The position numbers and the translations under genes were made by a program. From NCBI GenBank assembly GCA_902799015.1, contig CADBZI010000017.1, forward strand, positions 1 to 61,960: DNA of 61,960 nt. Direction: 5' to 3'. The notes beneath the pieces are model-generated. The model saw only the letters and a program-made list of their open reading frames with translations. It was not told the DNA's origin and did not search any database. This document shows, in pieces, positions 14,383-31,692 of the stretch; positions within the stretch are counted from its first letter, which is position 1, and every line of letters begins with the position of its first letter. This DNA comes from an uncultured Lachnospiraceae bacterium. GTDB taxonomy: Bacteria > Bacillota > Clostridia > Lachnospirales > Lachnospiraceae.

Positions 14383-14439
14383 AACCCAGGTCCTTTGAGG
14401 CAAGAGCAATCTACGGATGAATTATCAGGAGGGAAGAAA

Positions 14440-15471: not shown

Positions 15472-15578
15472 AAAACGCTTCTTGGTTTTGCGTCCAGCAC
15501 CTTTGCTGCCGGAGCTGCTTCGTGCTGCCAGGGTGCTGGTTATGGCAAAACAAAAACAGCGAAAAGAGGCCAGAAGGC

Positions 15579-16610
15579 ATGAAAGTAACAATGCAAAAGA
15601 TCGCAGATGCGGTCGGAGTTTCCCGCGGAACAGTAGACCGTGCACTCCATCACAGAGGAAGAATCTCCCCGGAGGTGGAAGCACGTATCTTTGATGCTGC
15701 GCGGACCATGGGGTATGCGCTTCCTGAGACGGATCAGGAGGATCCGGCAGCAGGCGGCTCAAAAGAGATTCGAATCGGCGTGGTGACCTATCTTTGCAAT
15801 GCGGGATTCATGCGTGAGATCAACAGAGGAATTGCGCAGGCGTCGGAAGAGCTTGCGGAGAGAGGCGTCCGGGTGATCCTCAAGGAAAGCCGGGCGGTAG
15901 ATGAGAAGGAGCAGCTGAAATTTCTGGAGGAACTGGATCAGATGAACCTGGACGGACTGGCTGTTATGCCGATCGACACAGGGGCGATCCGGAAGAAGCT
16001 CTATGAACTGTCGGAAGAGCCGCTGCCTCTGGTGATGTTTAACTCCAAGCTGTCCGGCATTCCCAGGCTTTGCTACGTCGGAATGGACAATTTCCAGAGC
16101 GGCAGGGCTGCGGCAGGACTGATGAACATGCTGACCGGAGGGAAAGGCCGGATCCTGGTGATTACGGGCAGCTTCGGAAACCAGCTGAACAATGCACGTG
16201 TGGAGGGATTTGCAAAGGAGATCAAGGACTCTTTTCCATCCCTTTCGATTGCGGCGGTTCAAAGCTCCTATGACAGTGAGGAAGAAGTGAAGAAGATCAT
16301 CGAGGATGCCATGCAGAATCTCCCGGAGATCAGCGGGATCCTTGTGGTCTCCAGCGGGCAGACGGGGATTCGGGATGCGCTGGACGCGCTGCCGCCTGAC
16401 AGGCGCCCCGCTATTGTGATCTACGACCAGACTCCGAAGAATGAGAAGCTGCTCAAAGATGACATGGCAGACTTTCTGATCGATCAGAGTGGATTTGAAC
16501 AGGGATACAGACCGTTGCATATCCTGACAAATGCGATCAGCCGGGGCATTCTTCCGGAAAAGCCGGAGGAATATACGGAGATCAGTATCCGGACGAAATA
16601 CAATTTATAA
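15579..16610 (+). CDS. LacI family transcriptional regulator of the inositol locus
   Basis: This 343-residue protein has an N-terminal helix-turn-helix plus hinge (MQKIADAVGVSRGTVDRALH, then VEARIFDAARTMGY) and a periplasmic-binding-protein-like sensor domain (residues about 65-340). I take ATG 15579 as the start; ATG 15591 is possible. The gene lies inside the locus between iolG and iolH. The repeated TGCGTKCA half-sites before iolE and iolH are its likely operators, and an inositol-pathway compound its likely inducer. Upstream, CCAGCACC (15494-15501) and GGTGCTGG (15532-15539) can form a hairpin that may lower read-through from iolG. Confidence 0.9.
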   Translation: MKVTMQKIADAVGVSRGTVDRALHHRGRISPEVEARIFDAARTMGYALPETDQEDPAAGGSKEIRIGVVTYLCNAGFMREINRGIAQASEELAERGVRVILKESRAVDEKEQLKFLEELDQMNLDGLAVMPIDTGAIRKKLYELSEEPLPLVMFNSKLSGIPRLCYVGMDNFQSGRAAAGLMNMLTGGKGRILVITGSFGNQLNNARVEGFAKEIKDSFPSLSIAAVQSSYDSEEEVKKIIEDAMQNLPEISGILVVSSGQTGIRDALDALPPDRRPAIVIYDQTPKNEKLLKDDMADFLIDQSGFEQGYRPLHILTNAISRGILPEKPEEYTEISIRTKYNL

Positions 16611-16886: not shown

Positions 16887-17807
16887 ATGAAGATCGCATT
16901 TGATGTGGATGTACTTGCGAAGCAGATGAGCATCACGGATATGGTTCACAAGGTCGCAGGCTGGGGCTACAAGTATATCGAGCAGTCCCCCCATCCGAGG
17001 ATCAATCCTTTCTATAAGCATCCGCTGTTTTCGAAGGAGTGCGAGGCGGAGTACAGGAATGCTCTGAAAGAGACCGGCGTGGAGATCTCATCGTTTATTG
17101 TTGTCTACCGCTGGTCAGGTCCGACCGAGGAACAGCGCCAGCATGCGGTTGCCAACTGGAAGAGAATGATCGAGATCGCGGTGAACATGGGAGTGCCGGT
17201 CATCAATACGGAGTTCTCCGGAGACCCCAACCAGCAGGAGATCTGCAACGGGATGTTCTTCCGTTCCATGGAAGAACTGCTTCCGATCATTGAGAAAGAG
17301 GGACTCAGGGTTGAGATTCAGTCTCATCCGTATGATTTCTGCGAGCTCAACGATGAAGCCTGCGATATCGTCAAGTCCTTCCGCTCCAAAAACCTCGGTT
17401 ATGTTTACAGCGCATCCCATGGTTTCTTCTATGACCAGGGCAAGGGCGATGTCCGTCATATGCTGAAGTATGCGGGAGACGAGCTGACCCACGTGCTGTT
17501 CGCCGACACCTACAATCAGACAAAGGACTGCCGTTATATCCTGAATCCGCCGTGGCTCAATCAGAGAGGCAGAGCGGATGTGACCATCCACCAGCATACG
17601 GCGATGGGCGAAGGAGAGGTTGACTTCGACGGCATCTTTGAAACGCTGCGTGAGATGGATTTTGCGAACCGGCAGCTGAAGAGTGACGCGCCGAAGGCTG
17701 GCGGTGACTCGATCGCCTGCGTGTCCTATTTCGGATTCCCGGAGAAGATGGACGTTCAGGCGCCTGAGGCAAGAGAGCGGATCGAGCGGGAACTGCTGGG
17801 ATCCTGA
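16887..17807 (+). CDS. iolH: IolH-like sugar phosphate isomerase/epimerase
   Basis: This 306-residue TIM-barrel protein starts at ATG 16887 with AAGGAGGA upstream. It closely resembles Bacillus IolH: MKIAFDVDVL, GYKYIEQSPHPRINPFYKHP, SSFIVVYRWSGP, NTEFSGDPNQ, VEIQSHPYDFCE, HQHTAMGEGEVDFD. IolH belongs to the AP-endonuclease-2/xylose-isomerase-like superfamily and is widely kept in inositol operons, but its reaction is not firmly known. Here it opens the second transcription block behind the operator cluster and is followed by iolD after 35 bases. Confidence 0.9.
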   Translation: MKIAFDVDVLAKQMSITDMVHKVAGWGYKYIEQSPHPRINPFYKHPLFSKECEAEYRNALKETGVEISSFIVVYRWSGPTEEQRQHAVANWKRMIEIAVNMGVPVINTEFSGDPNQQEICNGMFFRSMEELLPIIEKEGLRVEIQSHPYDFCELNDEACDIVKSFRSKNLGYVYSASHGFFYDQGKGDVRHMLKYAGDELTHVLFADTYNQTKDCRYILNPPWLNQRGRADVTIHQHTAMGEGEVDFDGIFETLREMDFANRQLKSDAPKAGGDSIACVSYFGFPEKMDVQAPEARERIERELLGS

Positions 17808-17842
17808 ACAACGCGTGAACCCAATGAGAAAGGAGACAGTTG

Positions 17843-19755
17843 ATGGAGAAAACAATCAGACTGACAACGGCACAGGCGATCGTAAAGTTTCTGGATCAGC
17901 AATATGTGTCGAGAGACGGAGAAGAAACAAAGTTCGTGGAGGCATTCTTCACACTGTTTGGCCATGGAATCGCGGTCGGACTCGGCGAAGCGCTTGACAC
18001 GAATCCCGGAAGCATCAAGGTGATGCAGGGAAGAAACGAACAGGGCATGTGCCACTGCGCAATCGCGTATGCGAAGCAGAATGACCGGAAGAAGATCATC
18101 CCCTGCGCATCCTCGATCGGCCCCGGCGCGGCCAACATGGTCACCGCCTGCGGTACCGCGACGGTCAACAACATTCCGCTGCTGGTATTCCCTTCGGATA
18201 CCTATGCGTCCAGACAGCCGGACCCTGTGCTGCAGCAGATTGAGCAGAGCAACTCCCTTGCAATTACGACGAACGATGCGTTCAAGCCGGTCTGCAAGTA
18301 TTGGGACCGGATTCAGCGTCCCGAGCAGCTGATGAGCGCGCTGATCAATGCGATGCGCGTGCTGACTGACCCGGCTGAGACCGGCGCGGTGGCGATTGCC
18401 CTTCCGCAGGATGTGGAAGGAGAAGCGTATGACTATCCGGAAAGCTTCTTCGTAAAGCGGGTACACCGGATCACCCGGCCCTGGAAGATGTCGCTGAAGT
18501 CATCAAGGCTTCCAAAAAGCCGATCGTCATCATCGGCGGCGGCGTGCGCTATTCCGAGGCGGGCGAAGAGGTTGAGAAGTTCTGTGAAGAGTTCGGCCTT
18601 CCGTTCGGTGAATCGCAGGGAGGAAAGAGCGCCCTGAGGTCCAGCCATCCTTACTGCCTGGGCGGCATCGGTGTTACCGGAACCTCCGCGTCCAACAAGA
18701 TCGCAAAGGAAGCGGACTGCGTAATCGGAATCGGCACCCGCATGACAGACTTCACCACCAGCTCCAAGTGGCTGTTCCGCAATGAGAATGTAACGTTTGC
18801 GGCCATCAATATCAGCCGCTTCCATGCATATAAGTTTGATGCCGTCAAGGCTGTGGGCGATGCCAGGGAGACGGTGAAGGCGCTGAGCGTCCTTCTGAGG
18901 GAAGCAGGCTATCATTCCGCATACACCACGGAAATTGAGGAAGCAAAGAAGGAGTGGGACGATGAGCTGGAGCGCCTTGGCGGCATTGTCTGCGAAGGTC
19001 CCGATTTCGAGCCGATCATCAAGGCAAGAGATGCACGCACCATTCCGGAGTTTGTGAAGCTGTACGGCACTTCTCTGACACAGACCGCCGCGCTCGCGAC
19101 GCTGCGTGCGATCATGGAGCCGGGAGACAATGTCGTCTGCGCAGGCGGATCTCTTCCCAGCGACCTGCAGAGAGTCTGGAAGACAGACAAGATCGGCGGA
19201 TACCATGTGGAATACGGCTATTCCTGCATGGGATATGAGATCGGCGCTTCGATGGGTGTGAAGATGGCGCAGCCTGAGGTCGAAGAATACACGGTAGTCG
19301 GAGATGCCGGATTCCAGATGCTCAGCAGTGAGCTCGGAACCATTATGCAGGAGAGAGTCAAGACGAATATTCTTGTTTTCGATAACTGCGGATTCGGCTG
19401 CATCAACAACCTTGAGATGACACACGGCATCGGCTCCATTGCGACGGAATTCCGTTATACCGACGGAAAGAAGCCCTGCGGAGATCTGATCCCGATGGAC
19501 TACGCGAAGATCGGCGAAGCCTATGGCATGAAGTCCTACACCTGCCGCAGCGTGGAAGAACTGGCGGAAGCTTTGAAGGATTCCAAAAAGCAGACCGTTG
19601 CCTGCCTGTTTGACCTGAAGGTTCTGCCGAAGAGCATGACAGACGGCTACGGATCCTGGTGGAATGTCGGTATTGCCGCCACCTCGGAGAAGGAGAGCGT
19701 CAGGGCGGCTGCCGCTGAGGTCATGGAATACAGAGAGCAGGCAAGAAAGTATTAA
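17843..19755 (+). pseudogene. iolD: IolD, THcHDO hydrolase (thiamine-diphosphate enzyme), frameshifted
   Basis: The gene encodes IolD, which opens the ring of 3D-trihydroxycyclohexane-dione to give 5-deoxy-glucuronate. It starts at ATG 17843 (AGGAG 7 bases upstream) with [45 protein letters not shown] and [10 protein letters not shown]. The first frame runs to 18637, but after about 18476 its product no longer resembles IolD ([12 protein letters not shown]). The correct sequence resumes from 18481 in another frame ([21 protein letters not shown]) and continues to 19755. It includes the cofactor motif GDAGFQMLSSELGT with FDNCGFGCINN. One lost base near 18474-18481 in a C/G-rich run would explain this. 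It may be a true mutation or an assembly error, since all other domains are intact. Confidence 0.85.
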
Positions 19756-19769: not shown

Positions 19770-20561
19770 ATGGAGAAAAAAGTGTTTGGTTACCCCTCCT
19801 TCAATGAGCAGGGGGAAAAGATTCTGACAACCTATGACAATGAATACGCGGACATGCTGATGGACATCCGGGTATACCGGATGAAGAGCGGCGAAAAGAG
19901 AACCTTCCGGCGCGAAGGCGAAGAGATTGCCGTACTGCTTCTGTCCGGAAAGATCGCATTTTCCTGGGAAGGGAATACTGCTGAGGTTTCCAGAAAAGAT
20001 GTCTGGACCGAAGGACCCTACGCATTGCATGTTTCTTCCGGCGTTCAGGCGGACGTGGAAGCGGTGGAAGACAGCGAGATTCTGGTGCAGTGCACGCACA
20101 ACGACAAAGCATTTGCCGCCAGACTGTATGAGCCGAAGGATGCCCCGTGGGGATATTCCAGTGTCGGGAAGTTCGGCAACGTCGCGAAGAGAAGAGTCAA
20201 TACGATCTTTGACCACGACATCCAGCCGGCATCCAATATGGTTCTGGGAGAGGTGCTGAATGACCGCGGCAACTGGTCGGGCTATCTCCCGCACAGACAT
20301 CCCCAGCCGGAGACATACTACTTTATGTTTGACAGGCCGGAAGGATTCGGCGCAAGCTTTGTCGGAGATCAGGTCTTCAAGAGTACGGACGGAAGCTTTT
20401 CCGCGATTCCGGGCGGAGAACTTCATCCGCAGGCGGTTGCTCCCGGTTTCCAGATGTATACCTGCTGGATGATCCGGCACCTGGACGGGAACCCCTGGCT
20501 GCAGACAGACCGCTGCGAGGATGAGCGGTACGTCTGGATGCATGACGCAAAGTTTGAGTAA
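19770..20561 (+). CDS. iolB: 5-deoxy-glucuronate isomerase IolB
   Basis: This 263-residue protein has a double cupin fold. The metal-site motif GNWSGYLPHRH, followed by PETYYFMFDRPEGFG and LHPQAVAPG, is diagnostic for IolB. It isomerises 5-deoxy-D-glucuronate, the IolD product, to 2-deoxy-5-keto-gluconate. It starts 14 bases after iolD, so the two are co-transcribed. The next steps in known pathways are the kinase IolC and aldolase IolJ, which are not found in this window. Confidence 0.94.
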   Translation: MEKKVFGYPSFNEQGEKILTTYDNEYADMLMDIRVYRMKSGEKRTFRREGEEIAVLLLSGKIAFSWEGNTAEVSRKDVWTEGPYALHVSSGVQADVEAVEDSEILVQCTHNDKAFAARLYEPKDAPWGYSSVGKFGNVAKRRVNTIFDHDIQPASNMVLGEVLNDRGNWSGYLPHRHPQPETYYFMFDRPEGFGASFVGDQVFKSTDGSFSAIPGGELHPQAVAPGFQMYTCWMIRHLDGNPWLQTDRCEDERYVWMHDAKFE

Positions 20562-20663
20562 ATGACAGAATCGGTGCCCCCTGGCAGATGAGAGGCTGAA
20601 CGGGCATGGAAAAGAACAATCGATTCATTTCACATAGAGCCAATGCAAAAAAAGGAGGACATT

Positions 20664-21722
20664 ATGGCGAAAATCAAAGTTGGTGTTGCAGGTTACGGAA
20701 CCATCGGACAGCGTCTGGCAGACGGCGTTGCAATGCAGGGAGACATGGAGCTGGTCGGAATTGCGGATCTTGCCCCGACTCTTTCCCTTCAGGCGCTGCG
20801 TGAGAGAGACATGATCGGCGCAAACGGCGTGAAGTATAACCTGTATCTGGTTGACGGCGCCGATGAGGCGGCATTCCAGGCAAAGGATATTCCGGTGGCG
20901 GGCAGCTTCGCGGATCTGTGCCAGAAGGTTGATATCATGCTGGATTCCGCACCGGGCGGCGTCGGCGCGAAGAACAAGGAAAACTACTATGACAAATATG
21001 GCGTGAAGGCGATCTTCCAGGGCGGCGAGAAGAATTCCGTCGCGGACGTCTTCTTCCACGGCTATGCCAACTATGAGAAGGGACTCGGCCAGAATTATCT
21101 GAAGCTGACCAGCTGCAATACCACCGGACTGATTCGCTCCGTTGACTGCCTGGATCGTGCGTTCGGCATCGAGAAGGTTGCCATCACCATCATTCGCCGT
21201 GTCGCGGATCCGGGTGATTATCACCGCGGACTGACCAACGCGCTGCAGATGGACAAGGCTCCGTCCCATCAGGCCGTCGACCTGATGACAATTATGCCGC
21301 ATGTCCATGCAACGGGCATCCTGGTCCATACGCCGGTTACCCACGGACACATCATCACCGTGCTCGCGACTGCGAAGGATGGCCGCAAGATCACGAAGGA
21401 AGAGGCGCTGGCAGCGTTCCAGAAGCATCCGCGTATCCGCGTCGTCTCCATCGACGAGGGATTCAAGGGCAATGCTTCCCTGTTCAAGTATGCAAGAGAC
21501 CTGGGCAACCGCCGCGGCGATATGTATGAGATCGGCCTCTGGGAGGATTCGATTGTTGAGTCCGGAAATGACATCATGTACGCGATCAACATTCCGCAGG
21601 AGAGCGTAACGATTCCGGAGACCATGGATGCGATCCGTGCTTCCATGAAGATGCAGCTCACCCGCGAAGAGGGTACCGCTGAGACCAACAAGTATCTGGG
21701 AATCGGCAAGTTCAAAAAGTAA
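20664..21722 (+). CDS. gap: type II (archaeal-type) glyceraldehyde-3-phosphate dehydrogenase homologue
   Basis: This 352-residue protein starts at ATG 20664, with AAGGAGG upstream. The N-terminus KVGVAGYGTIGQRLADGV and the active-site block TSCNTTGLIRSVD (catalytic Cys151) match the archaeal type II GAPDH family rather than the bacterial type I enzyme (which has SNASCTTNCL). DLMTIMPHVHATGILVHTPVTHGH is also typical of type II. Family members oxidise an aldehyde phosphate to an acyl phosphate with NAD(P). Its place between iolB and an archaeal-type PGK suggests a pathway-specific role. The substrate could be glyceraldehyde 3-phosphate or another aldehyde made in this locus. Confidence 0.88.
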   Translation: MAKIKVGVAGYGTIGQRLADGVAMQGDMELVGIADLAPTLSLQALRERDMIGANGVKYNLYLVDGADEAAFQAKDIPVAGSFADLCQKVDIMLDSAPGGVGAKNKENYYDKYGVKAIFQGGEKNSVADVFFHGYANYEKGLGQNYLKLTSCNTTGLIRSVDCLDRAFGIEKVAITIIRRVADPGDYHRGLTNALQMDKAPSHQAVDLMTIMPHVHATGILVHTPVTHGHIITVLATAKDGRKITKEEALAAFQKHPRIRVVSIDEGFKGNASLFKYARDLGNRRGDMYEIGLWEDSIVESGNDIMYAINIPQESVTIPETMDAIRASMKMQLTREEGTAETNKYLGIGKFKK

Positions 21723-21729
21723 TATACTT

Positions 21730-21759
21730 GCCCGGGGCAAAAGATCTTTTGTCCCGGGC
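21730..21759 (+). repeat. 30-base intercistronic palindrome between gap and pgk
   Basis: The 30 bases form a near-perfect dyad: GCCCGGG at the left end pairs with CCCGGGC at the right, and CAAAAG with CTTTTG around the centre, with one G-T pair. No T-run follows, so it looks more like an mRNA stability or processing hairpin, or a weak attenuator, than a full terminator. Confidence 0.6.
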
Positions 21760-21797
21760 AGCATCCACATTTTCATACACAAGACCGGGAGAGAATC

Positions 21798-23063
21798 ATG
21801 AGATTTGGTATTAATACGATTGACGAATTTGAACTGAGCGGAAAGACGGTTCTTTGCAGAGTTGACATGAATCAGCCTGTAGACAGAGCCACAGACAGCC
21901 TCAGGAGCACGCAGAGAATCGAGGCCTGTGCGCCGACTCTGAAGGAGCTTTCGGACAAAGGAGCGAAGGTTGTCGTGATGGCCCATCAGGGCAGCGATAT
22001 CGAATACCAGAATTTCTACTGCACCAGACCGCACGCGAAGGTTCTTTCTTCTCTGATCGGGAAGGAAGTGAAATGGGTCGAGGATGTATGCGGCCCCACA
22101 GCCCGCGAAGCGATTGCCGGCATGAAGGACGGAGAGATTCTGCTGCTGGATAATGTACGTTTCTGTTCAGAGGAACAGACTTTGTTCGAGCTGAAACTGA
22201 AGCTGACCCATGAGGAGCAGGCAAAGACACAGGTCGTGAGCAAGCTTGCCCCGCTGGGAGATCTCTATGTCTGTGATGCCTTTGCCGCGGCTCACAGAGA
22301 TCAGCCGACGCTGTGCGGATTTGAACAGGTGCTTCCGTCCGCGATGGGCAGACTGTTTGAGAAGGAGTACTGCGTGATCTCCGAGCTGATGGAGAATCCC
22401 CAGAAACCCTGTGTGTTTGTGCTGGGCGGATCGAAGATCAGCGATGCGTTCATCATGATGGAGACGGTCTTGAAGAGCGGCAGCGCGGATAAGGTTCTGA
22501 CGGGCGGCCTGGCAGGCAATATTCTGCTCCATGCCGTCGGAAAGAAGATCGGACAGAAGAGCGTTGACTTTATCTACGCAAAGAATTACGAGGATTATAT
22601 TCCGAAGGCAGCCGCGCTCTATGAGAAGTACGGGGACAGAATTGTCCTTCCGGTGGATCTGGGCGGCGTTGAGGAAGGAAAGCGCGTCGAGTATACGCCG
22701 GAGAATGTGCCGGATGATTTCTCGGCCATCGACATCGGCGCAGAAACGATCCGCCTGTACTGCGATGCCATAGCGAATGCGAAAACCGTGTTCGTCAATG
22801 GCCCCATGGGCGTTTTCGAGGAAAGTCTGAGCGAAGCCGGAACAAAGAAGATCTTCGAGGCACTGGGCGATACGAAGGCCTACACGGTTGTGGGCGGCGG
22901 TGATTCCGTGACGGCTGCGAAGAAGTATAAAGTCACGGATCAGCTTGGCTATGTCTGCACGGGCGGCGGAGCGCTGATCCGCTTCCTGACGGGCGAGGAG
23001 CTGCCGGTTGTGAAAGCGCTTCGGCATGCGGCGAAGGCATTTCCGGTTTCTCTCAGTGAGTAA
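21798..23063 (+). CDS. pgk: archaeal-type phosphoglycerate kinase homologue
   Basis: This 421-residue protein has the PGK features LCRVDMNQPVD (substrate site), MAHQGSD, LLDNVRFCSEE, DAFAAAHRDQPT, GGSKISDAF, VNGPMGVFEE and GGGDSVTAAKKY, plus TGGGALIRFL near the end. MAHQGSD in place of the bacterial HLGRP-type motif, and the overall spacing, point to the archaeal-type branch. PGK transfers phosphate from an acyl phosphate to ADP. Paired with the type II GAPDH just upstream, it would oxidise an aldehyde with ATP gain. A second bacterial-type PGK for glycolysis would be expected elsewhere in the genome. Confidence 0.87.
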   Translation: MRFGINTIDEFELSGKTVLCRVDMNQPVDRATDSLRSTQRIEACAPTLKELSDKGAKVVVMAHQGSDIEYQNFYCTRPHAKVLSSLIGKEVKWVEDVCGPTAREAIAGMKDGEILLLDNVRFCSEEQTLFELKLKLTHEEQAKTQVVSKLAPLGDLYVCDAFAAAHRDQPTLCGFEQVLPSAMGRLFEKEYCVISELMENPQKPCVFVLGGSKISDAFIMMETVLKSGSADKVLTGGLAGNILLHAVGKKIGQKSVDFIYAKNYEDYIPKAAALYEKYGDRIVLPVDLGGVEEGKRVEYTPENVPDDFSAIDIGAETIRLYCDAIANAKTVFVNGPMGVFEESLSEAGTKKIFEALGDTKAYTVVGGGDSVTAAKKYKVTDQLGYVCTGGGALIRFLTGEELPVVKALRHAAKAFPVSLSE

Positions 23064-23105
23064 GGTGCCGCCTCTGCCGGCGGTGAGTAAAGGAGACAGA
23101 ATCCT

Positions 23106-24356
23106 ATGCGAATGGAATTCGGCTACGGAAAAGGAACACAGACGGTAGAGATTCCGGATCAGAACCTGATCGCGGTTCTGACCGCCAATGAGATGGAGCA
23201 TGCCAGAAGAGGCGCGGACGCGATTGATTATGCGCTGGAGCATCCGATCGGCGCCGGGAAGCTTCGTGAGGTGGCGAAGAAGGGACAGAAGGTCGCGGTG
23301 ATTACCAGTGATATCTCCAGACCTCTTCCAAGCTATGAGGTTCTTCCTTCTGTGATCAGAGAATTGAATGAGGCAGGGATTCCGGATGAGGACATCACGG
23401 TGGTGTTCGCGCTGGGATCTCACAGGCATCATACGGAGGAAGAGAGACGGCATCTGGCCGGCGACGCCATCTTCGAGAGAGTGCGCTGCATCGATTCGGA
23501 TCCGGAGGATTGCATCCATACAGGGACTTCCTCCAACGGAACCCCCTTTGACTTTTCACGGAGCGTTGTGGAGGCGGATTTCCGCGTTGCGCTCGGCAAC
23601 ATTGAGTTTCATTATTTTGCCGGCTACTCCGGCGGCGTGAAGGCACTGATGCCGGGCGTATCGACGCCTGCGGCGATCCAGGCGAACCATTCCCTGATGG
23701 TATCGGAGAATGCATGCGCGGGGAAGCTGGAAGGCAATCCTGTCCGGCAGGATCTGGAAGAGGCCCTTGCCTTCTGCCCGATTCACTACATTGTGAACGC
23801 GGTTCTGGATGAGCATAAGCACATCGTATATGCAGTGGCCGGGGACGTGATCGAAGCACACCGGGCAGGCTGCCGGTATCTGGATCAGATGTACCGCAAG
23901 CCGATCCCCGCAAGAGCGGATATCGTTCTGGTCTCACAGGGCGGAGCGCCGAAGGATGCCAACCTGTATCAGACACAGAAGGCACTCGATAACGCCAAGC
24001 ATGCCGTGAAAAAAGGCGGAACCATGATTGTGATCGGTGCCTGCAACGAGGGCCTGGGAAGCGCGCGCTTTGAAGAATGGCTGACAGGCGCGCCGACCGC
24101 ACACTCCATGGTGGAACGGATCGGAAAGGACTTTCAGCTGGGCGGACATAAGGCTGCCGCGATCGCGATGGTTCTGGAGAACGCACGGATTGATCTGGTC
24201 AGTGAGATGGAGGATGACTTTGTCAGAAGCATTTTCCTGAATCCGCAGCCGGATGCGCAGACTGCGTTTGATGAAGCGATGGCACGTTACGGCGATCAGG
24301 CAACGGTGATCGCGATGCCGTTCGGAGGCGCTACTTTGCCGATGCCTCCGGCATGA
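23106..24356 (+). CDS. larA: LarA-family nickel-dependent 2-hydroxyacid racemase/epimerase
   Basis: This 416-residue protein belongs to the LarA (DUF2088) superfamily. LGSHRHHTEEE supplies His106/108/109. EFHYFAGYSGGVKALMPG supplies His169 and Lys179, and QANHSLM supplies His195. The spacing of 169, 179 and 195 equals that of His174, Lys184 and His200 in lactate racemase of Lactiplantibacillus, where the lysine holds the nickel-pincer cofactor. The family includes lactate, malate and other hydroxyacid racemases. Directly next to a malic enzyme, a malate-type or related substrate is plausible. LarE, needed to build the cofactor, is encoded at 42357. Confidence 0.9.
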   Translation: MRMEFGYGKGTQTVEIPDQNLIAVLTANEMEHARRGADAIDYALEHPIGAGKLREVAKKGQKVAVITSDISRPLPSYEVLPSVIRELNEAGIPDEDITVVFALGSHRHHTEEERRHLAGDAIFERVRCIDSDPEDCIHTGTSSNGTPFDFSRSVVEADFRVALGNIEFHYFAGYSGGVKALMPGVSTPAAIQANHSLMVSENACAGKLEGNPVRQDLEEALAFCPIHYIVNAVLDEHKHIVYAVAGDVIEAHRAGCRYLDQMYRKPIPARADIVLVSQGGAPKDANLYQTQKALDNAKHAVKKGGTMIVIGACNEGLGSARFEEWLTGAPTAHSMVERIGKDFQLGGHKAAAIAMVLENARIDLVSEMEDDFVRSIFLNPQPDAQTAFDEAMARYGDQATVIAMPFGGATLPMPPA

Positions 24357-24437
24357 CGAGAATATGATCCGGCATGACGGAACATACCGGATGCCGGAAG
24401 GAACGCTGCAGGAAAAAAGGAAGGAGAAAACAGCGAT

Positions 24438-25610
24438 ATGGATTACGCAAAAGAGTCACTGCGCCTGCATGAGGAATGGAAGGGCAAGATTGAGGTTGTG
24501 GCAACCGTGCCGGTCGCGACAAAGGACGATCTGTCTCTGGCCTATACGCCGGGCGTCGCACAGCCCTGCCTTGAGATTCAGAAGGATCCGCTGAAGTCTT
24601 ATGAGCTGACAAGGCGGCACAATATGTGCGCTGTCATCACGGACGGCACGGCAGTTCTGGGACTGGGCGATATCGGGCCGGAAGCCGGCATGCCTGTTAT
24701 GGAAGGAAAATGTGTGCTGTTCAAGTCTTTCGGCGATGTGGACGCATTTCCGCTATGCGTAAAGACGAAGGACGTGGATGAGTTTGTTGAGACCGTTTAC
24801 AACATCTCCGGCTCGTTCGGCGGCATCAACCTTGAGGACATTGCCGCACCGCGCTGCTTTGAGATCGAGCGGAAGCTGAAAGAAAAATGTGACATCCCGA
24901 TCTTCCATGATGACCAGCACGGAACTGCCGTCATCACCCTGGCGGGACTTCTCAATGCGCTGAAGGTCGTAGGCAAGAAGAAGGAAGGGGTTAAGATCGT
25001 CACGTCCGGCGCGGGAGCCGCTGCGATTGCGATCGTGAAGCTTCTTCTTTCCGCCGGCTTTAAGGATGTCATCATGTGTGACAGAAAGGGCGCGATCTAC
25101 GAGGGCAGAGATGGCCTGAACTGGATCAAGGAAGAGATGGCACTGGTTACAAACAAAGAGAAGAAGAGCGGAAGTCTGGCGGATGTGCTCGCCGGTGCGG
25201 ATGTCTTCATCGGCGTCTCTGCTCCGGGCACGGTCACAACGGAGATGGTCAAGACGATGAACAAAGACGCCATCGTATTTGCCTGCGCGAATCCGACGCC
25301 GGAGATCTTCCCGGATGACGCGAAGGCCGGCGGAGCAGCCGTGATCTCTACGGGACGAAGCGATTTTCCGAACCAGATCAACAACGTGCTGGCATTTCCG
25401 GGCATCTTCCGCGGAACCTTCGATGTGCGCGCCAGCGATATCAACGAGGAGATGAAGATGGCAGCGGCTATGGCGCTCGCGAATCTGATCTCCGACGAGG
25501 AACTGAATGCGGATTATATTATTCCGAAGGCATTCGATCCGAGAGTCGGCCCGGCAGTTGCGAAGGCGGTCGCCGAAGCGGCAAGGAAGTCCGGCGTCGC
25601 AAGGATCTGA
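24438..25610 (+). CDS. NAD(P)-dependent malic enzyme
   Basis: This 390-residue protein is a short bacterial malic enzyme with no phosphotransacetylase tail. YTPGVAQPCLEI, GLGDIGPEAGMPVMEGK with the catalytic Lys, INLEDIAAPRCFEIE, FHDDQHGTA and TSGAGAAAIAIVKLL (nucleotide binding) are all present. FACANPTPE and STGRSDFPNQINN complete the active site. It decarboxylates malate to pyruvate in the cytoplasm. The gene lies 81 bases after larA and before the transketolase pair; its substrate in this setting could be malate formed or racemised by the preceding enzymes. Confidence 0.94.
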   Translation: MDYAKESLRLHEEWKGKIEVVATVPVATKDDLSLAYTPGVAQPCLEIQKDPLKSYELTRRHNMCAVITDGTAVLGLGDIGPEAGMPVMEGKCVLFKSFGDVDAFPLCVKTKDVDEFVETVYNISGSFGGINLEDIAAPRCFEIERKLKEKCDIPIFHDDQHGTAVITLAGLLNALKVVGKKKEGVKIVTSGAGAAAIAIVKLLLSAGFKDVIMCDRKGAIYEGRDGLNWIKEEMALVTNKEKKSGSLADVLAGADVFIGVSAPGTVTTEMVKTMNKDAIVFACANPTPEIFPDDAKAGGAAVISTGRSDFPNQINNVLAFPGIFRGTFDVRASDINEEMKMAAAMALANLISDEELNADYIIPKAFDPRVGPAVAKAVAEAARKSGVARI

Positions 25611-25851: not shown

Positions 25852-26668
25852 ATGACACAGGAACAGGTCAAAAAGCTCCAGGAATTTGCCCTGGAGATCA
25901 GGATCGGTACGGTGGAGTGCATCAAGTCCAGAGGCTTTGGCCATATCGGAGGCTCTCTCTCCGTAGCGGATCTTCTTGCAGTACTCTACGGCAGCGTGAT
26001 GAATGTGGATCCTGCGGATCCGAAGAAGGCAGACCGCGACAAGCTGGTTTGCTCCAAGGGACATGCAGGCCCGGCGGTGTATTCGACACTGGCTCTGAAA
26101 GCTGTACACCCTCAACCAGCCGGGAACAGACCTTCCGTCCCACTGCGACAGAAAGAAGACCCCTGGCGTCGACATGACAACAGGTTCTTTGGGACAGGGC
26201 ACATCAACGGCAGTAGGGCTTGCGCTTGGTGACCGTCTGCAGGGCAGAGACTGCCGGACTTTCCTGATCGTTGGTGACGGCGAGGCAGAGGAAGGCCAGG
26301 TATGGGAGGCTGCCATGTTTACCGCGGCCAAGAAGCTGACCAATCTGGTGTGGATCATCGACTGGAATAAGAAGCAGCTGGATGGTTATGTCAAGGATAT
26401 CAATGACCCGGGTGATTTTCAGGCGAAGTTCGAAGCCTTTGGATTTGACGCTGTGACAGTGGACGGACACGATGTTGAGAAGCTGTATGAAGCGCTGACA
26501 AAAAAGGCAGAGGAGAAGCCCATCGCCATCATTCTTGATTCGGTGAAGGGCAAGGGCGTGACCGCTGTCGAGGAGACGATGGCGAATCATTCCATGAAAG
26601 TGGGACCGGAAGTATTTGACGGATGGCTGGCTGAGCTTCGCGAGAAGCAGGCTGCCATGAAGGCGTAA
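25852..26668 (+). pseudogene. tkt: transketolase N-terminal subunit, broken by a small deletion
   Basis: This is the thiamine-diphosphate half of a split transketolase. From ATG 25852 the product reads through GFGHIGGSLSVADLLAVLY and CSKGHAGPAVYSTLALK, then leaves the family at about 26101. From 26102 a different frame continues correctly (LYTLNQPGTDLPSHCDRKK, TTGSLGQGTSTAVGLALG, GDGEAEEGQVWEA) to 26668. Split transketolases normally carry about seven residues (GYFPxxW) between ALK and LYTLN. The gap therefore corresponds to a loss of about 20 bases, which shifts the frame. Unless the sequence is wrong, no full N-terminal subunit is made from this copy. The first frame ends at 26232. Confidence 0.83.
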
Positions 26669-26680: not shown

Positions 26681-27622
26681 ATGGATATCGTTTATAACGG
26701 GGATAAGGATTCAAGATTATTCAAGGTTGTGATCGGTGAAACCATCGACGCACTGATGAAAGAAGATGAGAAGGTTGTCTGGCTGGATGCGGACCTGAGA
26801 GGCTGCAGCGGCACAGCCGGAAAGCAGGGTGACCGCTACATCAACTGCGGTATCGCTGAGGCGAATATGATCGGCATCGCGGCAGGTCTTTCTGCCTCCG
26901 GCATGAAGCCCTATGCGCACTCATTTGGTCCCTTTGCCTCCAGAAGAGCTTATGACCAGGCCTTCCTGGCAGCGGGGTATGCAGGCAACCCGGTTACCAT
27001 CGTCGGAACAGACCCGGGAATCACAGCTGCATTCAACGGCGGAACCCATATGCCTTTTGAGGATATGGCGCTGTACCGTGCCATGCCGGAAGCAACCGTC
27101 TACGACATTACCGATGTCCCGATGCTGGTGGATACCCTCCGGAAGTCGAAGGATATGCCGGGTGTGAAGTACATCCGTGTTCCGAGAGCCGCGTCGTATC
27201 AGATCTATGCGGACGGCACCTCCTTTACTCCCGGAAAGGGCATGGTCCTGAGGGAAGGAAAAGACGTCCTGATCGTAGCGAGCGGAATTATGGTCCGGGA
27301 AGCACTGGAAGCAGCGAAGAAGCTGGAAGCGGAAGGAATCGAAGCTGCGGTAATCGATCCGGTAACGGTCAAGCCGCTGGATGTGGATCTGATCCGTTCG
27401 TGGGCGGAAAAGACCGGTGCCGTTGTGACTTGCGAGAATCACAACAGAATCGGCGGACTGACCAGCGCGGTGGAAGATGCCCTGATCGGCATGCCGCTGA
27501 AGTTTGGCCATGTTGCAGTAGAGGATACCTTCGGCGAAGTCGGACCGCAGGATTATCTGCGCGAACGCTTTGACCTCACAGACGAGCATATCTGCCGCCT
27601 GGTCCGCGAATGGAAGGCTTAA
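26681..27622 (+). CDS. tkt: transketolase C-terminal subunit
   Basis: This 313-residue protein contains the pyrimidine-binding and C-terminal transketolase domains: WLDADLRGCSGTAG, INCGIAEANMIGIAAGLSASG, YAHSFGPFASRRAYDQ, and YIRVPRAA. The last domain ends with CENHNRIGGLTSAVEDAL and LRERFDL. It would work with the N-terminal subunit encoded 12 bases upstream to move two-carbon units between sugars, but that partner is frameshifted here. AAGGAGGT precedes the start. A truncated second copy of its last 62 codons lies at 31693-31882. Confidence 0.93.
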   Translation: MDIVYNGDKDSRLFKVVIGETIDALMKEDEKVVWLDADLRGCSGTAGKQGDRYINCGIAEANMIGIAAGLSASGMKPYAHSFGPFASRRAYDQAFLAAGYAGNPVTIVGTDPGITAAFNGGTHMPFEDMALYRAMPEATVYDITDVPMLVDTLRKSKDMPGVKYIRVPRAASYQIYADGTSFTPGKGMVLREGKDVLIVASGIMVREALEAAKKLEAEGIEAAVIDPVTVKPLDVDLIRSWAEKTGAVVTCENHNRIGGLTSAVEDALIGMPLKFGHVAVEDTFGEVGPQDYLRERFDLTDEHICRLVREWKA

Positions 27623-27662
27623 CGCAGCTACCGCGGAGTGCTTTACAGAAAGGAAAGAAAGA

Positions 27663-29156
27663 ATGGAATACATACTTGATATGCAGAATATCAGTAAAAC
27701 TTTCCCCGGCGTTAAGGCATTGGACAATGTACAGCTGCAGGTAAGGCCAGGAGAGGTTCATGCGCTCATGGGAGAAAACGGGGCCGGAAAGTCGACCCTG
27801 ATGAAGATCCTCATGGGAATCTATACCATGGACGAGGGTGGTTCCATAACCTTTAACGGACAGCCTTATAAAGTGCATAACCCCAAGGAGGCGATGGATA
27901 CGGGCATTGCCATGATCCATCAGGAACTCAACCCGATTCTGGACATGACCGTCTATGAAAACATTTTTGTCGGCCGTGAGATCCGGAAAAACGGATTGGT
28001 CGATAAAAAGGCGGAGATCGAGGAGGCAAAGAAGCTGATCGCGGAATGCGGCCTGCATGTGTCTCCGACGGAGATCCTGCGCCATCTGACGGTGGCCCAG
28101 TGCCAGCTGATCGAGATCATCAAGGCAATCTCGGTCAATGCCAAGGTCATCATCATGGATGAGCCTACAGCGGCGATTACGGACAGGGAAGTTGAGCTTT
28201 TGTTCGGGCATATCAGACGGCTGAAGGAAAAGGGTGTGTCAATCATCTATATTTCCCACCGAATGGATGAAATATTCGCAATCTGTGACAGCATCACGGT
28301 ATATCGTGACGGAACTTTCATCGGAAGAGGCGAGACCTCTGAACTGGATGAAGCGGCCCTGATCCGGATGATGGTTGGCCGGGAAATCACAGACGTGTTT
28401 CCGAAGCTTGAGGCAAAGATCGGAGAAACGCTGCTTGAGGCGAATCATATCACCAGAGAAGACGGAAGAGTCAAAGATGTCAGCATTAACGTCAGACGCG
28501 GCGAGATCCTGGGCATCGGAGGACTGGTCGGCGCGGGGCGCAGTGAGCTGGTGGAAGGAATCTTCGGTATGCACAGGCTTTCCGGCGGTGAGATCATCGT
28601 AAAAGGAAAGAAGGTGACGGTGCATGCGCCGAAAGACATCATCAAGGAGGGCGTTGCGCTGGTTACGGAGGACCGGAAGGTAACCGGCCTGAATCTGACC
28701 GGCAGCGTCAATGACAATATTTCAATGGTTGCGATCCGCAAGACACTGGTGAATGGTCTGTACAGCAAAGTGAAGGCAAGAAAGCTGTCGAAGGAATACA
28801 TCGACATGCTGAAGATCAAGACACCGTCCGGAGACCAGATTGTCGGCAATCTGTCCGGCGGCAACCAGCAGAAGGTTGTAATCTCCAAATGGCTGCTCAA
28901 CGATCCGGATGTCATCATCATGGATGAGCCGACGAGAGGTATTGATGTCGGAGCAAAGAGAGACATCTATCTGCTGATCGGAAGCCTGGTACAGCAGGGA
29001 AAAGCAGTGATCATTATCTCCTCGGAGATCCCGGAACTGATGGGAGTCTGCGACCGGATTGTGGTCATGGCAGAAGGCCATCTGTCCGGAGAGCTCTCAA
29101 GAGAGGAGTTTTCTCAGGAGAGCATCATGAGGCTTGCTTCGGATATCGCAGTTTAA
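27663..29156 (+). CDS. ribose-type sugar ABC transporter, ATP-binding protein (importer 1)
   Basis: This 497-residue protein starts at ATG 27663. Two ABC domains are fused, as in RbsA/MglA. The first has GENGAGKSTLMK, IHQELNPI and MDEPTAAIT. The second has GLVGAGRSELVEG as a degenerate Walker A, then LSGGNQQKVVISKWL and MDEPTRGIDVGAK. It powers uptake through the permease at 29178. Its place after the transketolase genes suggests a cyclitol or sugar substrate such as inositol. The operon order is ATPase, permease, binding protein. Confidence 0.94.
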   Translation: MEYILDMQNISKTFPGVKALDNVQLQVRPGEVHALMGENGAGKSTLMKILMGIYTMDEGGSITFNGQPYKVHNPKEAMDTGIAMIHQELNPILDMTVYENIFVGREIRKNGLVDKKAEIEEAKKLIAECGLHVSPTEILRHLTVAQCQLIEIIKAISVNAKVIIMDEPTAAITDREVELLFGHIRRLKEKGVSIIYISHRMDEIFAICDSITVYRDGTFIGRGETSELDEAALIRMMVGREITDVFPKLEAKIGETLLEANHITREDGRVKDVSINVRRGEILGIGGLVGAGRSELVEGIFGMHRLSGGEIIVKGKKVTVHAPKDIIKEGVALVTEDRKVTGLNLTGSVNDNISMVAIRKTLVNGLYSKVKARKLSKEYIDMLKIKTPSGDQIVGNLSGGNQQKVVISKWLLNDPDVIIMDEPTRGIDVGAKRDIYLLIGSLVQQGKAVIIISSEIPELMGVCDRIVVMAEGHLSGELSREEFSQESIMRLASDIAV

Positions 29157-29177
29157 CCACCGGTGGAGGATAGAACC

Positions 29178-30128
29178 ATGAATAATAATAAAAAGAGCGC
29201 AGCTGCCCTGATCAGCGAATACTTTATCTTTGTCATATTTCTTGTACTTGTAATCGTATTGACCATTCTGAAGCCCAGCTTCATCACACCGAGAAACCTG
29301 GCCAATATTCTGAAGCAGGCGTCGATCAACGGCATCCTTGCTTTCGGCATGATGTTCGTCATCATCTCCGGCGGGTTTGATATGTCAGTCGGATCTACCG
29401 TCGCATTTACCGGTATTCTGGCTGCATTGCTCGGCAGAGGGCAGTATCCGCTCATTGTCCCGCTTCTCGTGGCGATGGCCGCCGGACTGGGCGTAGGAAT
29501 CCTGAATGGCGTCGGAATCGCGATCGGCGATCTGCCTCCGTTCATCATGACACTCGGAACACAGACGGCGGTCAGGGGTCTGGCACTTCTGATCTCAAAC
29601 GGAAAGCCGATCACCGGCATCAGTGAAGAATACCGGATGGTCGCGGCAAGCGACATCTTCGGAATTCCGAGCCTGGCAGTGTTTTTGCTGATTGTCATTC
29701 TGATCAGCTCTTTCGTGGCAATCAAAACCGTATACGGCAGAAGGGTATATGCCTGCGGAGGAAATGTGCAGGCGGCGAAGGTGGCCGGCATCAACACAAC
29801 CTTTATCCGGATCTCGACCTTTGCCATCGCGGGCTTCCTTTCCGGACTGTGCGGCTTCCTGATGACCTCCCGTGTCACAATCGGCCAGCCGACCGCGGCG
29901 GAGAGCTATGAGCTGGACGCGATTACGGCCTGCGTCGTGGGCGGCGTATCGATGTCCGGCGGCGTCGGAAAGCCCTGGGGTGTTGTAGTAGGTACACTCC
30001 TGATCACAGTCATCGGCAACGGACTGGACATTCTGGGCGTTTCTTCCCACTGGCAGAAGATCGTCAAGGGCCTGATCATTGTCCTGGCGGTTTTGATGGA
30101 TGTCAAGGGAAAGAGCAAAAAGGATTGA
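29178..30128 (+). CDS. ribose-type sugar ABC transporter permease (importer 1)
   Basis: This 316-residue membrane protein of the RbsC family starts at ATG 29178; GGTGGAGGA lies before it. It has about nine hydrophobic segments. Typical family motifs are SFITPRNLANILKQASINGIL, ISGGFDMSVGSTVA, PPFIMTLGTQTAVRGLALLIS, GNVQAAKVAGI, and the cytoplasmic EAA-like loop ELDAITACVVGGVSMSGGVG. It forms the channel of importer 1. Confidence 0.94.
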   Translation: MNNNKKSAAALISEYFIFVIFLVLVIVLTILKPSFITPRNLANILKQASINGILAFGMMFVIISGGFDMSVGSTVAFTGILAALLGRGQYPLIVPLLVAMAAGLGVGILNGVGIAIGDLPPFIMTLGTQTAVRGLALLISNGKPITGISEEYRMVAASDIFGIPSLAVFLLIVILISSFVAIKTVYGRRVYACGGNVQAAKVAGINTTFIRISTFAIAGFLSGLCGFLMTSRVTIGQPTAAESYELDAITACVVGGVSMSGGVGKPWGVVVGTLLITVIGNGLDILGVSSHWQKIVKGLIIVLAVLMDVKGKSKKD

Positions 30129-30190
30129 AAGTAACTGGCAACACGCTGTAACTCAATTATTTTCACATTTCAGTAAGGAGGATTTGTAAC

Positions 30191-31153: not shown

Positions 31154-31167
31154 ATGAATTGAAGAAA

Positions 31168-31209
31168 GGGCCGCTCTGTTTCTGATGGGAAACAGGGCGG
31201 CTCTTTTTC
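31168..31209. terminator. intrinsic terminator after importer 1
   Basis: GGCCGCTCTGTTT and AAACAGGGCGGCTC form a stem around TCTGATGGG and are followed by TTTTTCT at about 31203-31209. The AraC fragment on the opposite strand ends just past it, so it may serve both directions. Confidence 0.8.
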
Positions 31210-31213
31210 TGCT

Positions 31214-31692
31214 TCAGGAGCTGATGTTTTTGCTCTTGCCGATCACATAGTTGTCCCGGTACCGCTTGGGGGAAACGCCCACGTGCTTCGTGAACTGCGC
31301 GTTGAAGTAGTTCTGCGTATCGAAGCCGGTCATCAATGTGATGTCGATAATGGGAAGGTCTGTGGAGATCAGAAGAGTCTGTGCTTCTCCCAGCCTGCGC
31401 CGCAGCAGATACTGGATCGGGGAATAGCCGCTCATGCCCTTAAAGACATGGGAGAGGTAGTAGGGACTGATGTTCAGCGCGTTCCCGATCTCCTGCAGAG
31501 AGAGCGGCTCGTGATAATGCCTGTCGATGTATTCTTTGATCCGGTTTCCCAGGACGTGCTCTTCCGCCACCTTTTCCCGGGAGATGCCGCGGTTCTCTTT
31601 CACAACCGTGAGGGATCTGACCAGGAAGGCGTGCATCAGGCTCCGGCAGAAGGTTTCGGCGTCGCCGTCCTCTCTGGACAGACTCTCAAACC
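31214..31692 (-). pseudogene. AraC family regulator, 5' end lost (C-terminal DNA-binding part only)
   Basis: The reverse-strand frame encodes the C-terminal AraC DNA-binding domain: EYIDRHYHEPLSLQEIGNAL, ISPYYLSHVFKGMSGYSPIQYL, IIDITLMTGFDTQNYFNAQFTKHVGVSPKRY. Upstream of about 31692 the frame no longer resembles a regulator; it is the antisense of a transketolase fragment (31693-31882). The sensor domain and normal start are missing, so this is a truncated gene fused to foreign sequence. Some short product could still start inside the frame (at codon 67-68 or later), but the natural start is lost. Confidence 0.78.

Follow-up and report, generated by a model that had tools for sequence, protein, structure and literature searches.

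An inositol locus of an uncultured Lachnospiraceae bacterium carrying a type II GAPDH, a diverged PGK and a malate racemase: a candidate transketolase branch of inositol catabolism

Results

The window analysed here, a stretch of 61,960 nucleotides from an uncultured Lachnospiraceae bacterium, carries on one strand iolE, iolG, iolD and iolB followed by genes for a type II glyceraldehyde-3-phosphate dehydrogenase (GAPDH-II), a phosphoglycerate kinase (PGK), a LarAH6 racemase, a malic enzyme and a split transketolase (Table 1). A sequence-only reading had described the series from iolB to transketolase, and profile matches bear it out, the transketolase genes at 25852-27622 lying beyond the coordinates then given. 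IolD and IolE of the classical inositol pathway are both present by profile match; iolD is frame-broken in the present draft and a single open ORF in the related loci L039, L041, L045 and L046. The transketolase N subunit is a single ORF of 287-309 aa in L039, L040, L045 and L046. The ORF at 16887 was considered as a sugar kinase concealed in the block and is of the TIM-barrel isomerase type instead, presumably IolI/inosose isomerase. The ABC transporter region gave a weak match to a rhizopine-binding protein (59.2 vs a cut-off of 420). Chance assembly or contamination was rejected, since many genomes carry the block.

Table 1. Positions of the inositol genes, the block and associated features in the window, with the profile scores (bits) on which they are named.
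Feature	Position	Strand	Basis
iolE, inosose dehydratase	13480..14382	+	TIGR04379 414.1 vs cut-off 290
iolG-like inositol dehydrogenase	14395..15471	+	NF052679 360.6 (cut-off 540), TIGR04380 193.5 (cut-off 355); both below
LacI/GntR-type regulator	15522..16610	+	regulator models, scores under cut-offs
Xylose-isomerase-like TIM barrel	16887..17807	+	PF01261 132.4 vs 31.1
iolD, ring-opening hydrolase, two overlapping ORFs	17840..19755 (17840-18637, 18544-19755)	+	TIGR04377 380.2 + 450.9, each <715
iolB-like 5-deoxy-glucuronate isomerase	19770..20561	+	PF04962 171 vs 23.9; TIGR04378 IolB equivalog 96.4, below 205
Type II GAPDH; proposed phosphorylating (R)-malate-semialdehyde dehydrogenase	20643..21722	+	NF003251 396.1 vs 185; TIGR01546 290 vs 232.9
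Diverged PGK; proposed D-malyl-phosphate kinase (ATP-forming)	21798..23063	+	PF00162 382.3 vs 27
Nickel-dependent malate racemase, LarAH6/Mar2 family	23106..24356	+	NF052593 545.9 vs 500; closest solved chain Mar2 6d6z, 402
Malic enzyme	24438..25610	+	PF00390 112.7, PF03949 83.7, both above cut-offs
Transketolase N subunit, two overlapping ORFs	25852..26668	+	NF004559 67.1 + 158.7, below cut-off for whole transketolases
Transketolase C subunit	26681..27622	+	PF02779, PF02780; closest solved chain split transketolase 6yaj; altered pocket motif
Two sugar-type ABC transporters, putative inositol uptake	27660..35641	+	PF00005, PF02653, PF13407; NCBIfam relatives under cut-offs
LarE, for racemase nickel-pincer cofactor	42357..43178	+	TIGR00268 323.2 vs 150

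The GAPDH passes the curated type II cut-offs and has Cys158 and His234 in conserved alignment columns; H219 of 1cf2 is taken to be the catalytic His. Its likely start is the in-frame ATG at 20664, which agrees with the Cys151 numbering used previously (Cys158 if counted from 20643). The closest solved chains are the archaeal GAPDHs 2czc, 1cf2, 1b7g and 2yyy. Archaeal and plasmid-borne bacterial proteins are of the same family and keep the catalytic Cys and His, but a 100/100 branch separates four archaeal and six plasmid proteins from the 94 block GAPDH-II rows, which group together. Four of the six plasmid genes adjoin sugar-metabolism genes, and the block itself was not found on plasmids, where 37 records match the block GAPDH, each at <60% identity. 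Changes next to the catalytic His are weak evidence, as plasmid type II GAPDHs also vary there.

The PGK belongs to its fold family by the PF00162 score and had been called archaeal-type, a label that is moderately supported by sequence comparison: Pyrococcus 2cun is the best solved relative (287.6 bits, against 238.4 bits with Thermotoga 1vpe) and the block PGK splits off with it in a tree holding this one archaeal reference (support 0.977), but in percent identity the two structures are level (38.9% to 2cun, 39.5% to 1vpe). Ser66-Asp67 of the window PGK stand where ordinary PGKs carry Lys/Arg and then Pro or Val. The basic residue of the substrate-phosphate patch is lost in 87 of 87 block PGK rows (S 84, D 2, G 1; some rows are two records of one genome), and K/R is found at this position in 13 of 13 ordinary copies of the same genomes, R in 1vpe and K in 2cun. 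We take it to be Arg65 in classical numbering, part of the 3-phosphoglycerate phosphate patch. Conserved catalytic-type residues are retained in both block PGK and GAPDH-II. A housekeeping role for the block PGK was rejected because 13 of the 16 block-bearing genomes examined have an ordinary PGK besides it; none was seen in the drafts G000, G016 and G028 (85, 72 and 93% complete). The source genome also has a separate GAPDH-family match at the edge of contig C61. With the recurrent iol linkage described below, these copies support the earlier proposal that the GAPDH/PGK pair looks pathway-specific.

The window LarA passes the LarAH6 equivalog cut-off. Of 75 block LarA proteins, 71 reach E<=1e-150 against the malate racemase model. 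In three Spirochaete loci the LarA is a distant one, at 34-35% identity. Both cofactor genes sought are present, LarE in the window and LarC (PF01969, 429 bits) on this genome's contig C24. Locus L124, which has no larA, holds after gap2-pgk a match to the tartrate dehydrogenase model TIGR02089 (503.8 vs 470.4), a family that we take to include D-malate dehydrogenase; this protein passes the 3-isopropylmalate dehydrogenase model too (412.6 vs 393).

In the transketolase, a His is replaced by Asp in the window and in 56 of 57 block rows, while the other split transketolase of the same genome retains it. This is presumably the phosphate-site His. The block transketolase of L200 lacks the Asp motif, which also occurs outside the block, in two of seven other transketolases fetched from block-bearing genomes. 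Phosphoketolase was rejected as a partner recycling xylulose-5-phosphate, since strong matches (>500 bits) were confined to G150 and G398 among 16 genomes and other listed matches reached <=30 bits.

Recurrence of the block beside iolB, for which a survey had been suggested, was assessed in 80 named loci, chosen as the best 80 among 431 confirmed loci, which biases them toward close relatives; 29 of them have at least 8 kb on each side. Among these 29, pgk is found in 28, larA in 25, both transketolase subunits in 19 and malic enzyme in 16, and iolD, iolE and iolB occur together in 25. Two remote lineages also have the block, their PGK sharing about 45% identity (G463, 99% complete; G646, 75%).

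No iolC or iolJ match was obtained in any of 102 loci (tblastn, E<=1e-15; many loci ended by contig ends), the IolJ query being the class II aldolase adjoining iolC in L211 and its search covering the loci beside the cluster. At the level of 56 distinct iolD-positive genomes, GAPDH-II without IolC was found in 11, both in 1, IolC only in 39 and neither in 5, a near-exclusion with Fisher p ~3e-7, kinship uncorrected. From this table G540 was left out (iolD match of 339 bits, below cut-off), six of 37 IolC family genomes fall outside for want of an iolD match at E<=1e-90, and G228 was retained though below cut-off, its GAPDH-II lying in two pieces at contig ends. The five genomes with neither marker are varied: CoA-transferase/acyl-CoA dehydrogenase genes adjoin iol in G097 and an aldehyde dehydrogenase in G312 and G341, the iol region of G126 ends at a contig end, and G216 has a 244.8-bit IolC fragment on the contig shared with iolD. 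IolC was not found at E<=1e-75 in G463 (99% complete) or, among the best candidates scored, in the source genome (draft about 85% complete; best match E 1.2e-48).

Discussion

Gene content, linkage, the near-exclusion with IolC, the separate PGK copy and the residue changes make it probable, in our judgement, that the block encodes a transketolase branch for inositol breakdown, in place of the 2-deoxy-5-keto-D-gluconate (DKG) kinase IolC and the DKG-phosphate aldolase IolJ. We infer each reaction from DKG to D-malate, as well as the acceptor sugar and the cofactor. IolG, IolE, IolD and IolB lead to DKG, which read from its ketol end is HOCH2-CO-CHOH-CHOH-CH2-COO- and presents the D-threo ketose skeleton of xylulose-5-phosphate with -CH2COO- replacing -CH2OPO3. 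The split transketolase may then move the C5-C6 ketol to an aldose phosphate (glyceraldehyde-3-phosphate giving xylulose-5-phosphate) and leave (R)-malate semialdehyde, a mimic of glyceraldehyde-3-phosphate. GAPDH-II is predicted to oxidise this to D-malyl phosphate using phosphate and NAD, PGK to form D-malate and ATP, the racemase to yield L-malate, and malic enzyme to give pyruvate, CO2 and NAD(P)H. By established chemistry, cleavage of D-threo DKG by transketolase would have to yield the (R)-semialdehyde and so D-malate, which would explain a racemase ahead of an L-malate malic enzyme. The malate racemase matches of block LarA and the dehydrogenase of L124, where larA is lacking, also speak for malate. 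The sequence-only reading had outlined a semialdehyde going by way of an acyl phosphate to an acid and ATP, then through LarA and malic enzyme to pyruvate; this fits, but the transketolase origin of the aldehyde from DKG, D-malate as the acid and the absence of iolC/iolJ had gone unnoticed. A literature search, with subscription papers and preprints mostly outside its scope, gave no description of such a route among the matches listed.

Several observations count against the transketolase branch. Linked transketolase is missing from 10 and linked malic enzyme from 13 of the 29 full-flank loci. Of 19 GAPDH-II genomes in two surveys, seven are without iolD; an IolN-like gene lies near the block in three of these, and none was found in the fetched loci of G357, G488, G524 and G184. 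The Asp motif in transketolases outside the block, the second model passed by the L124 dehydrogenase, the distant Spirochaete LarA and the five iolD-positive genomes with neither marker weigh in the same direction. In 24 of 102 loci an iPGM gene lies upstream of the block, which suits ordinary triose-phosphate metabolism. Furthermore, scoring in the genome searches covered the top first-look candidates of each genome (5 or 8 for IolC), and PfkB-kinase matches of low strength are frequent (312 of 397), so a DKG kinase may have been missed or have diverged.

These last points, together with the retained catalytic-type residues, would suit an account in which GAPDH-II and PGK, in some loci with iPGM, are extra lower-glycolysis enzymes for inositol-derived triose phosphate, LarA and malic enzyme handle malate of other origin, and unlinked enzymes phosphorylate and cleave DKG. 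We consider this unlikely in view of the 102 loci without an iolC or iolJ match, the whole-genome near-exclusion, the loss of the PGK basic residue in 87 of 87 block rows, the malate racemase as a steady companion of the block and the ordinary PGK that 13 of 16 genomes already own. It is also improbable that the transketolase split of DKG is correct while GAPDH-II and PGK serve malate semialdehyde and glyceraldehyde-3-phosphate alike; the xylulose-5-phosphate formed would itself need burning via triose phosphate and iPGM is part of some operons, but PGK and transketolase are altered at positions that we take to be phosphate contacts. The earlier candidates for oxidation to an acyl phosphate by GAPDH-II, erythrose-4-phosphate and malonate semialdehyde (the classical product of IolJ), are very improbable, since no IolJ or IolC match adjoins the block and malonate semialdehyde lacks a hydroxyl on which a racemase could act, which would leave LarA and malic enzyme unexplained.

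The proposed transketolase branch shares with the classical IolG-E-D-B-C-J-A pathway of the Bacillus subtilis type the early activities to DKG and the iolG, iolE, iolD and iolB families. It departs from it at IolC and IolJ, in that transketolase would split DKG into a C2 ketol and malate semialdehyde, with ATP made instead of spent at that stage. A parallel is the sulfo-TK pathway of sulfoquinovose breakdown (SqvD, SqwGH), where the transketolase SqwGH takes a C2 ketol from a ketose that is anionic and carries no phosphate, and passes it to glyceraldehyde-3-phosphate to form xylulose-5-phosphate (PMC11659671). For the split transketolase subunits of the block, action on such a ketose is proposed, with a carboxylate rather than a sulfonate; in sulfo-TK the leftover aldehyde is isomerised, cleaved again and ends in sulfoacetaldehyde, whereas here it would pass through GAPDH/PGK to D-malate and pyruvate. 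The Mar2/LarAH6 racemase of Thermoanaerobacterium thermosaccharolyticum, of the same family as the window LarA, has an activity that its authors find consistent with genomic context, and they leave its in vivo role open (PMC7583248); the window LarA is proposed to sit downstream of inositol.

If true, the branch would add a way of breaking down, in gut and rumen, a very widespread compound of plant origin (inositol from phytate), with pyruvate, CO2 and pentose phosphate as products in place of acetyl-CoA and triose phosphate. GAPDH and PGK would earn ATP on a non-phosphorylated mimic, and malate racemase would gain a natural source of D-malate. Annotators would then not have to count an iol cluster without iolC as broken. 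Incomplete sequence, assembly errors and frameshifts are given in a large survey as possible reasons why a fourth core gene is missing (PMC9430895).

More tentatively, and with rather less expectation of being right, we suggest that transketolase, GAPDH and PGK form a general 'carboxylate glycolysis' cassette, re-tuned to carboxylates that imitate sugar phosphates and placed behind varied ring-opening routes, which would have spread among Bacillota, Spirochaetota and Synergistota. Behind IolD/IolB it would lead to D-malate; behind IolN-IolO-UxaE it might split D-fructuronate and lead via erythruronate to meso-tartrate, as the two epimerases of that route would set exactly the D-threo (3S,4R) centres needed by transketolase. 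The Thermotoga inositol pathway (IolN, IolO, UxaE) proceeds through uronate reduction. Its genes are represented in the 102 GAPDH-II loci by seven IolN-like (weak in L117), six IolO-like and two UxaE matches, and, unlike in that pathway, the IolN-like matches adjoin GAPDH-II and PGK, with transketolase in six of the seven.

Gene order and the proposed route

The gene block beside the inositol (iol) genes of this contig quite probably encodes a specific route of inositol breakdown through transketolase, type II GAPDH (GAPDH-II) and PGK, in which every reaction after 2-deoxy-5-keto-D-gluconate (DKG) is predicted. The sequence-only reading had reported GAPDH-II, an archaeal-type PGK, a LarA-family racemase, malic enzyme and transketolase at an inositol locus, and this arrangement was confirmed on one strand (see table); the label "archaeal-type" is based on one archaeal reference. 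The source draft genome comprises 2.64 Mb in 168 contigs and is about 85% complete. Its closest named relative among the best 80 of 431 GAPDH relatives is the uncultured Lachnospiraceae MAG RUG12671 (GAPDH 98% identical), presumably a member of a rumen MAG series. Since iolD and transketolase N are each one unbroken ORF in the close relatives L039, L045 and L046, their breaks in the window are likely draft errors.

Coordinates of features in the window and in related loci
Location	Position	Strand	Feature
Window	13480-27622	+	iolE, iolG-like, regulator, TIM-barrel isomerase, iolD, iolB-like, type II GAPDH, PGK, LarA, malic enzyme, transketolase N, transketolase C
Window	17840-19755		iolD, two overlapping ORFs
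Window	25852-26668		Transketolase N, two overlapping ORFs
Window	downstream of 27622		Two sugar-type ABC transporters, after transketolase C
Window	37477-42352	+	ABC transporter genes, putative vitamin B6 transporter family-like; every score below curated cut-offs
Window	46795-50190	+	1131-aa ORF, AA_permease_2 amino-acid permease fused to histidine kinase and response-regulator domains (transporter-sensor fusion)
L079 and 23 other loci	7386-8966 (L079)		BPG-independent phosphoglycerate mutase (iPGM)
L088 and 21 other loci	5894-7330 (L088)		72 similar ORFs, median 4 kb upstream of GAPDH
L032 (genome G357)	10640-16714	-	Aldehyde dehydrogenase, pyruvate-formate-lyase-like glycyl-radical enzyme and radical-SAM protein beside the block

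In the proposed route DKG, the product of IolB, would be the input to transketolase, and this branch would replace DKG kinase (IolC) and DKG-phosphate aldolase (IolJ). Written from its ketol end, DKG is HOCH2-CO-CHOH-CHOH-CH2-COO-, and its D-threo centres match those of fructose-6-P and xylulose-5-P, since by established chemistry a classical FBA-type aldolase cleaves DKG phosphate; a class II aldolase adjoins iolC in locus L211. Transketolase would leave OHC-CHOH-CH2-COO-, which is (R)-malate semialdehyde, a carboxylate mimic of glyceraldehyde-3-P, and GAPDH and PGK chemistry on this compound would give an acyl phosphate and then ATP and (R)-malate (D-malate). Because malic enzymes use L-malate, the route needs a racemase that converts the D-malate from PGK before malic enzyme can act. 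A malate racemase model was matched at E<=1e-150 by 71 of 75 block LarA proteins, and the LarA of the window scores above the curated LarAH6 malate racemase cut-off (545.9 vs 500), with the solved malate racemase Mar2 (6d6z) as its closest solved chain. A LarE gene lies inside the window and a LarC gene elsewhere in the same genome. Locus L124, a single case with other unexplained neighbours, is without larA and carries after gap2-pgk a dehydrogenase of TIGR02089 (503.8 vs 470.4), a family that we take to include D-malate dehydrogenase; the protein also exceeds the 3-isopropylmalate dehydrogenase model cut-off (412.6 vs 393).

No account of a DKG-transketolase-malate route was found among the matches listed from an open literature of 5.39 million papers. 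The nearest mechanism is the sulfo-TK pathway (PMC11659671), and among the papers listed malate semialdehyde appears in carnitine breakdown and synthetic pathways. The discoverers of Mar2 left the role of the racemase open (PMC7583248). The earlier idea of a candidate pathway branch agrees in its outline with the present reading, which narrows it to a specific, testable transketolase/D-malate route.

Distribution and linkage

Within the genus of the source organism, block-type GAPDH occurs in 3 of 19 genomes (G000, G009, G016), next to four weak matches at 38-40% across some 48 residues. A single scan of a named collection of genomes confirmed 431 GAPDH relatives, the best 80 of which were kept; these are titled Bacillota, Spirochaetes and Synergistaceae, and almost all are MAGs. 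Adding 22 loci from the family and phylum surveys brought the set to 102, many of which end at contig ends. Of the 80 named loci, 29 have at least 8 kb on both sides, and 25 of these hold iolD, iolE and iolB together, so that the linkage to iol genes recurs, a point that the sequence-only reading had proposed to survey. These full-flank loci carry pgk (28/29), larA (25/29), both transketolase subunits (19/29; linked transketolase absent in 10) and malic enzyme (16/29; absent in 13), and none of the 29 has malic enzyme without larA. The loci without linked transketolase or malic enzyme count against the proposed route. Two distant lineages (PGK about 45% identical) also carry the block: genome G463 (two contigs, 99% complete) in the order transporter-gap2-pgk-tktN-tktC-iolB-iolD-iolE-iolG-larA, and G646 with a similar set plus malic enzyme.

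In the GAPDH tree, for which the tool warned of long reference branches, all 94 block rows fall together beyond a 100/100 branch, vs four archaeal and six plasmid-borne type II GAPDHs. Spirochaetota and Synergistota rows are interspersed with Bacillota. The simplest reading is transfer of the block between phyla, mis-binned MAGs aside. The plasmids (L185-L190) represent a separate bacterial type II GAPDH group, adjoined by alpha-glucan phosphorylase in two of the six, pfkA in one and aldolase in one. Three spirochaete blocks (L061, L063, L070) are without linked transketolase or malic enzyme, and the LarA that follows iolD in them is distant (34-35% identity). One scanned ORF of the 72-ORF upstream cluster is a HAD-family hydrolase, perhaps a candidate inositol-phosphate phosphatase.

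Substrate pocket residues

Arg65 of PGK is presumably a contact of the 3-phosphoglycerate phosphate. Ordinary PGKs from the same genomes have K or R here in 13/13 copies (R in the Thermotoga enzyme 1vpe, K in the Pyrococcus enzyme 2cun); the 87 block rows, some of them two records of one genome, have S (84), D (2) or G (1). These rows comprise 81 locus ORFs (a single ORF for each locus, selected on length and score), the window and five distant members. The remaining contacts of the pocket (Asp, Asn, His, three Arg) are unchanged in block PGKs. The transketolase His that we take to be a phosphate-site residue is Asp in the window and in 56/57 block rows, the exception being a badly aligned row, and is retained in the other split transketolase of the source genome (L215). 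Other rows count against this residue evidence: the block transketolase of L200 is without the Asp motif, and one transketolase row away from any block also carries Asp. Of seven further transketolases taken from block genomes, two (L220 and L221) have the Asp as well, and in three (L216-L218) the motif is unreadable. L220 and L221 are split enzymes encoded outside the block of G255 and G357, and since both show the changed Asp...NGGTHM motif, a wider transketolase family for unusual ketoses may exist.

GAPDH is altered beside the catalytic His in 94/94 block rows, which is weak evidence because plasmid type II GAPDHs also vary there. Asp instead of Lys at position 42 is an argument for NAD rather than NADP; block GAPDHs, like the plasmid enzymes, have Asp42 in place of the archaeal Lys, which suggests that their cofactor may be NAD.

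Near-exclusion with IolC and search for IolJ

No match to iolC or iolJ was obtained in the 102 loci (tblastn, E<=1e-15), many of them truncated at contig edges. As a positive control, iolC was detected in four other loci (36-71% identity) by the same IolC query; the IolJ query is without such a control. Genome surveys scored the best first-look candidates only per genome (5 or 8 for IolC). Among 397 family genomes, 14 have GAPDH-II (13 above the cut-off, the other being G228, where the gene is split in two), 37 IolC over cut-off and 45 IolD. The 45 divide into GAPDH-II without IolC (9), both (1, G218), IolC only (30) and neither (5, among them a genome that has a fragment of IolC), and IolD was unseen in 6 of the 37 IolC genomes. 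In 249 phylum-drawn genomes the counts are 6 for GAPDH-II, 10 for IolC and 14 for IolD; excluding G540, whose IolD match is below cut-off, each of the 10 IolC genomes carries IolD and is without GAPDH-II, and all three IolD genomes without IolC carry GAPDH-II. Pooled, the 56 distinct IolD genomes fall into both (1), GAPDH-II alone (11), IolC alone (39) and neither (5), with a Fisher p of about 3e-7 that makes no correction for kinship. The authors of PMC9430895 surveyed 193,757 genomes and admitted inositol clusters with one of the four core genes missing; of 1,024 clusters with three genes, 810 had the fourth at another place in the genome, and incomplete sequence, assembly errors or frameshifts were given as possible reasons for an absent gene.

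Some observations weigh against the proposed route. A diverged DKG kinase hidden in these genomes is possible because PfkB kinases abound in those surveyed. It is also possible that block GAPDH and PGK carry ordinary triose-phosphate traffic, as iPGM lies upstream of the block in 24/102 loci, all in one group of relatives; a second, ordinary PGK (>500 bits) occurs in 13/16 block genomes, in agreement with the earlier proposal that the GAPDH/PGK pair is pathway-specific.

IolN-like loci and genomes without IolD

Thermotoga-type IolN-like matches occur in 7/102 GAPDH-II loci (L066, L062, L029, L027, L200, L028 and, weakly, L117), over cut-off in L066 and L029. IolO-like matches occur in six of the 102, five of them among these seven (that of L066 slightly below its own cut-off), and UxaE in two. 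IolO and UxaE epimerise C3 and C4. Together they would yield D-fructuronate, whose C3/C4 centres would suit transketolase, which suggests that the IolN loci may represent another entry point into this cassette, with tartrate as the end product. Also counting against the proposed inositol route, IolD is absent from 7 of the 19 GAPDH-II genomes of the two surveys; IolN-like genes lie near the block in three of these seven, and none was seen in the fetched loci of G357, G488, G524 and G184. The neighbours of the block in G357 form an unexplained third context, and pyruvate-dehydrogenase-type genes are present in G524 and G488.
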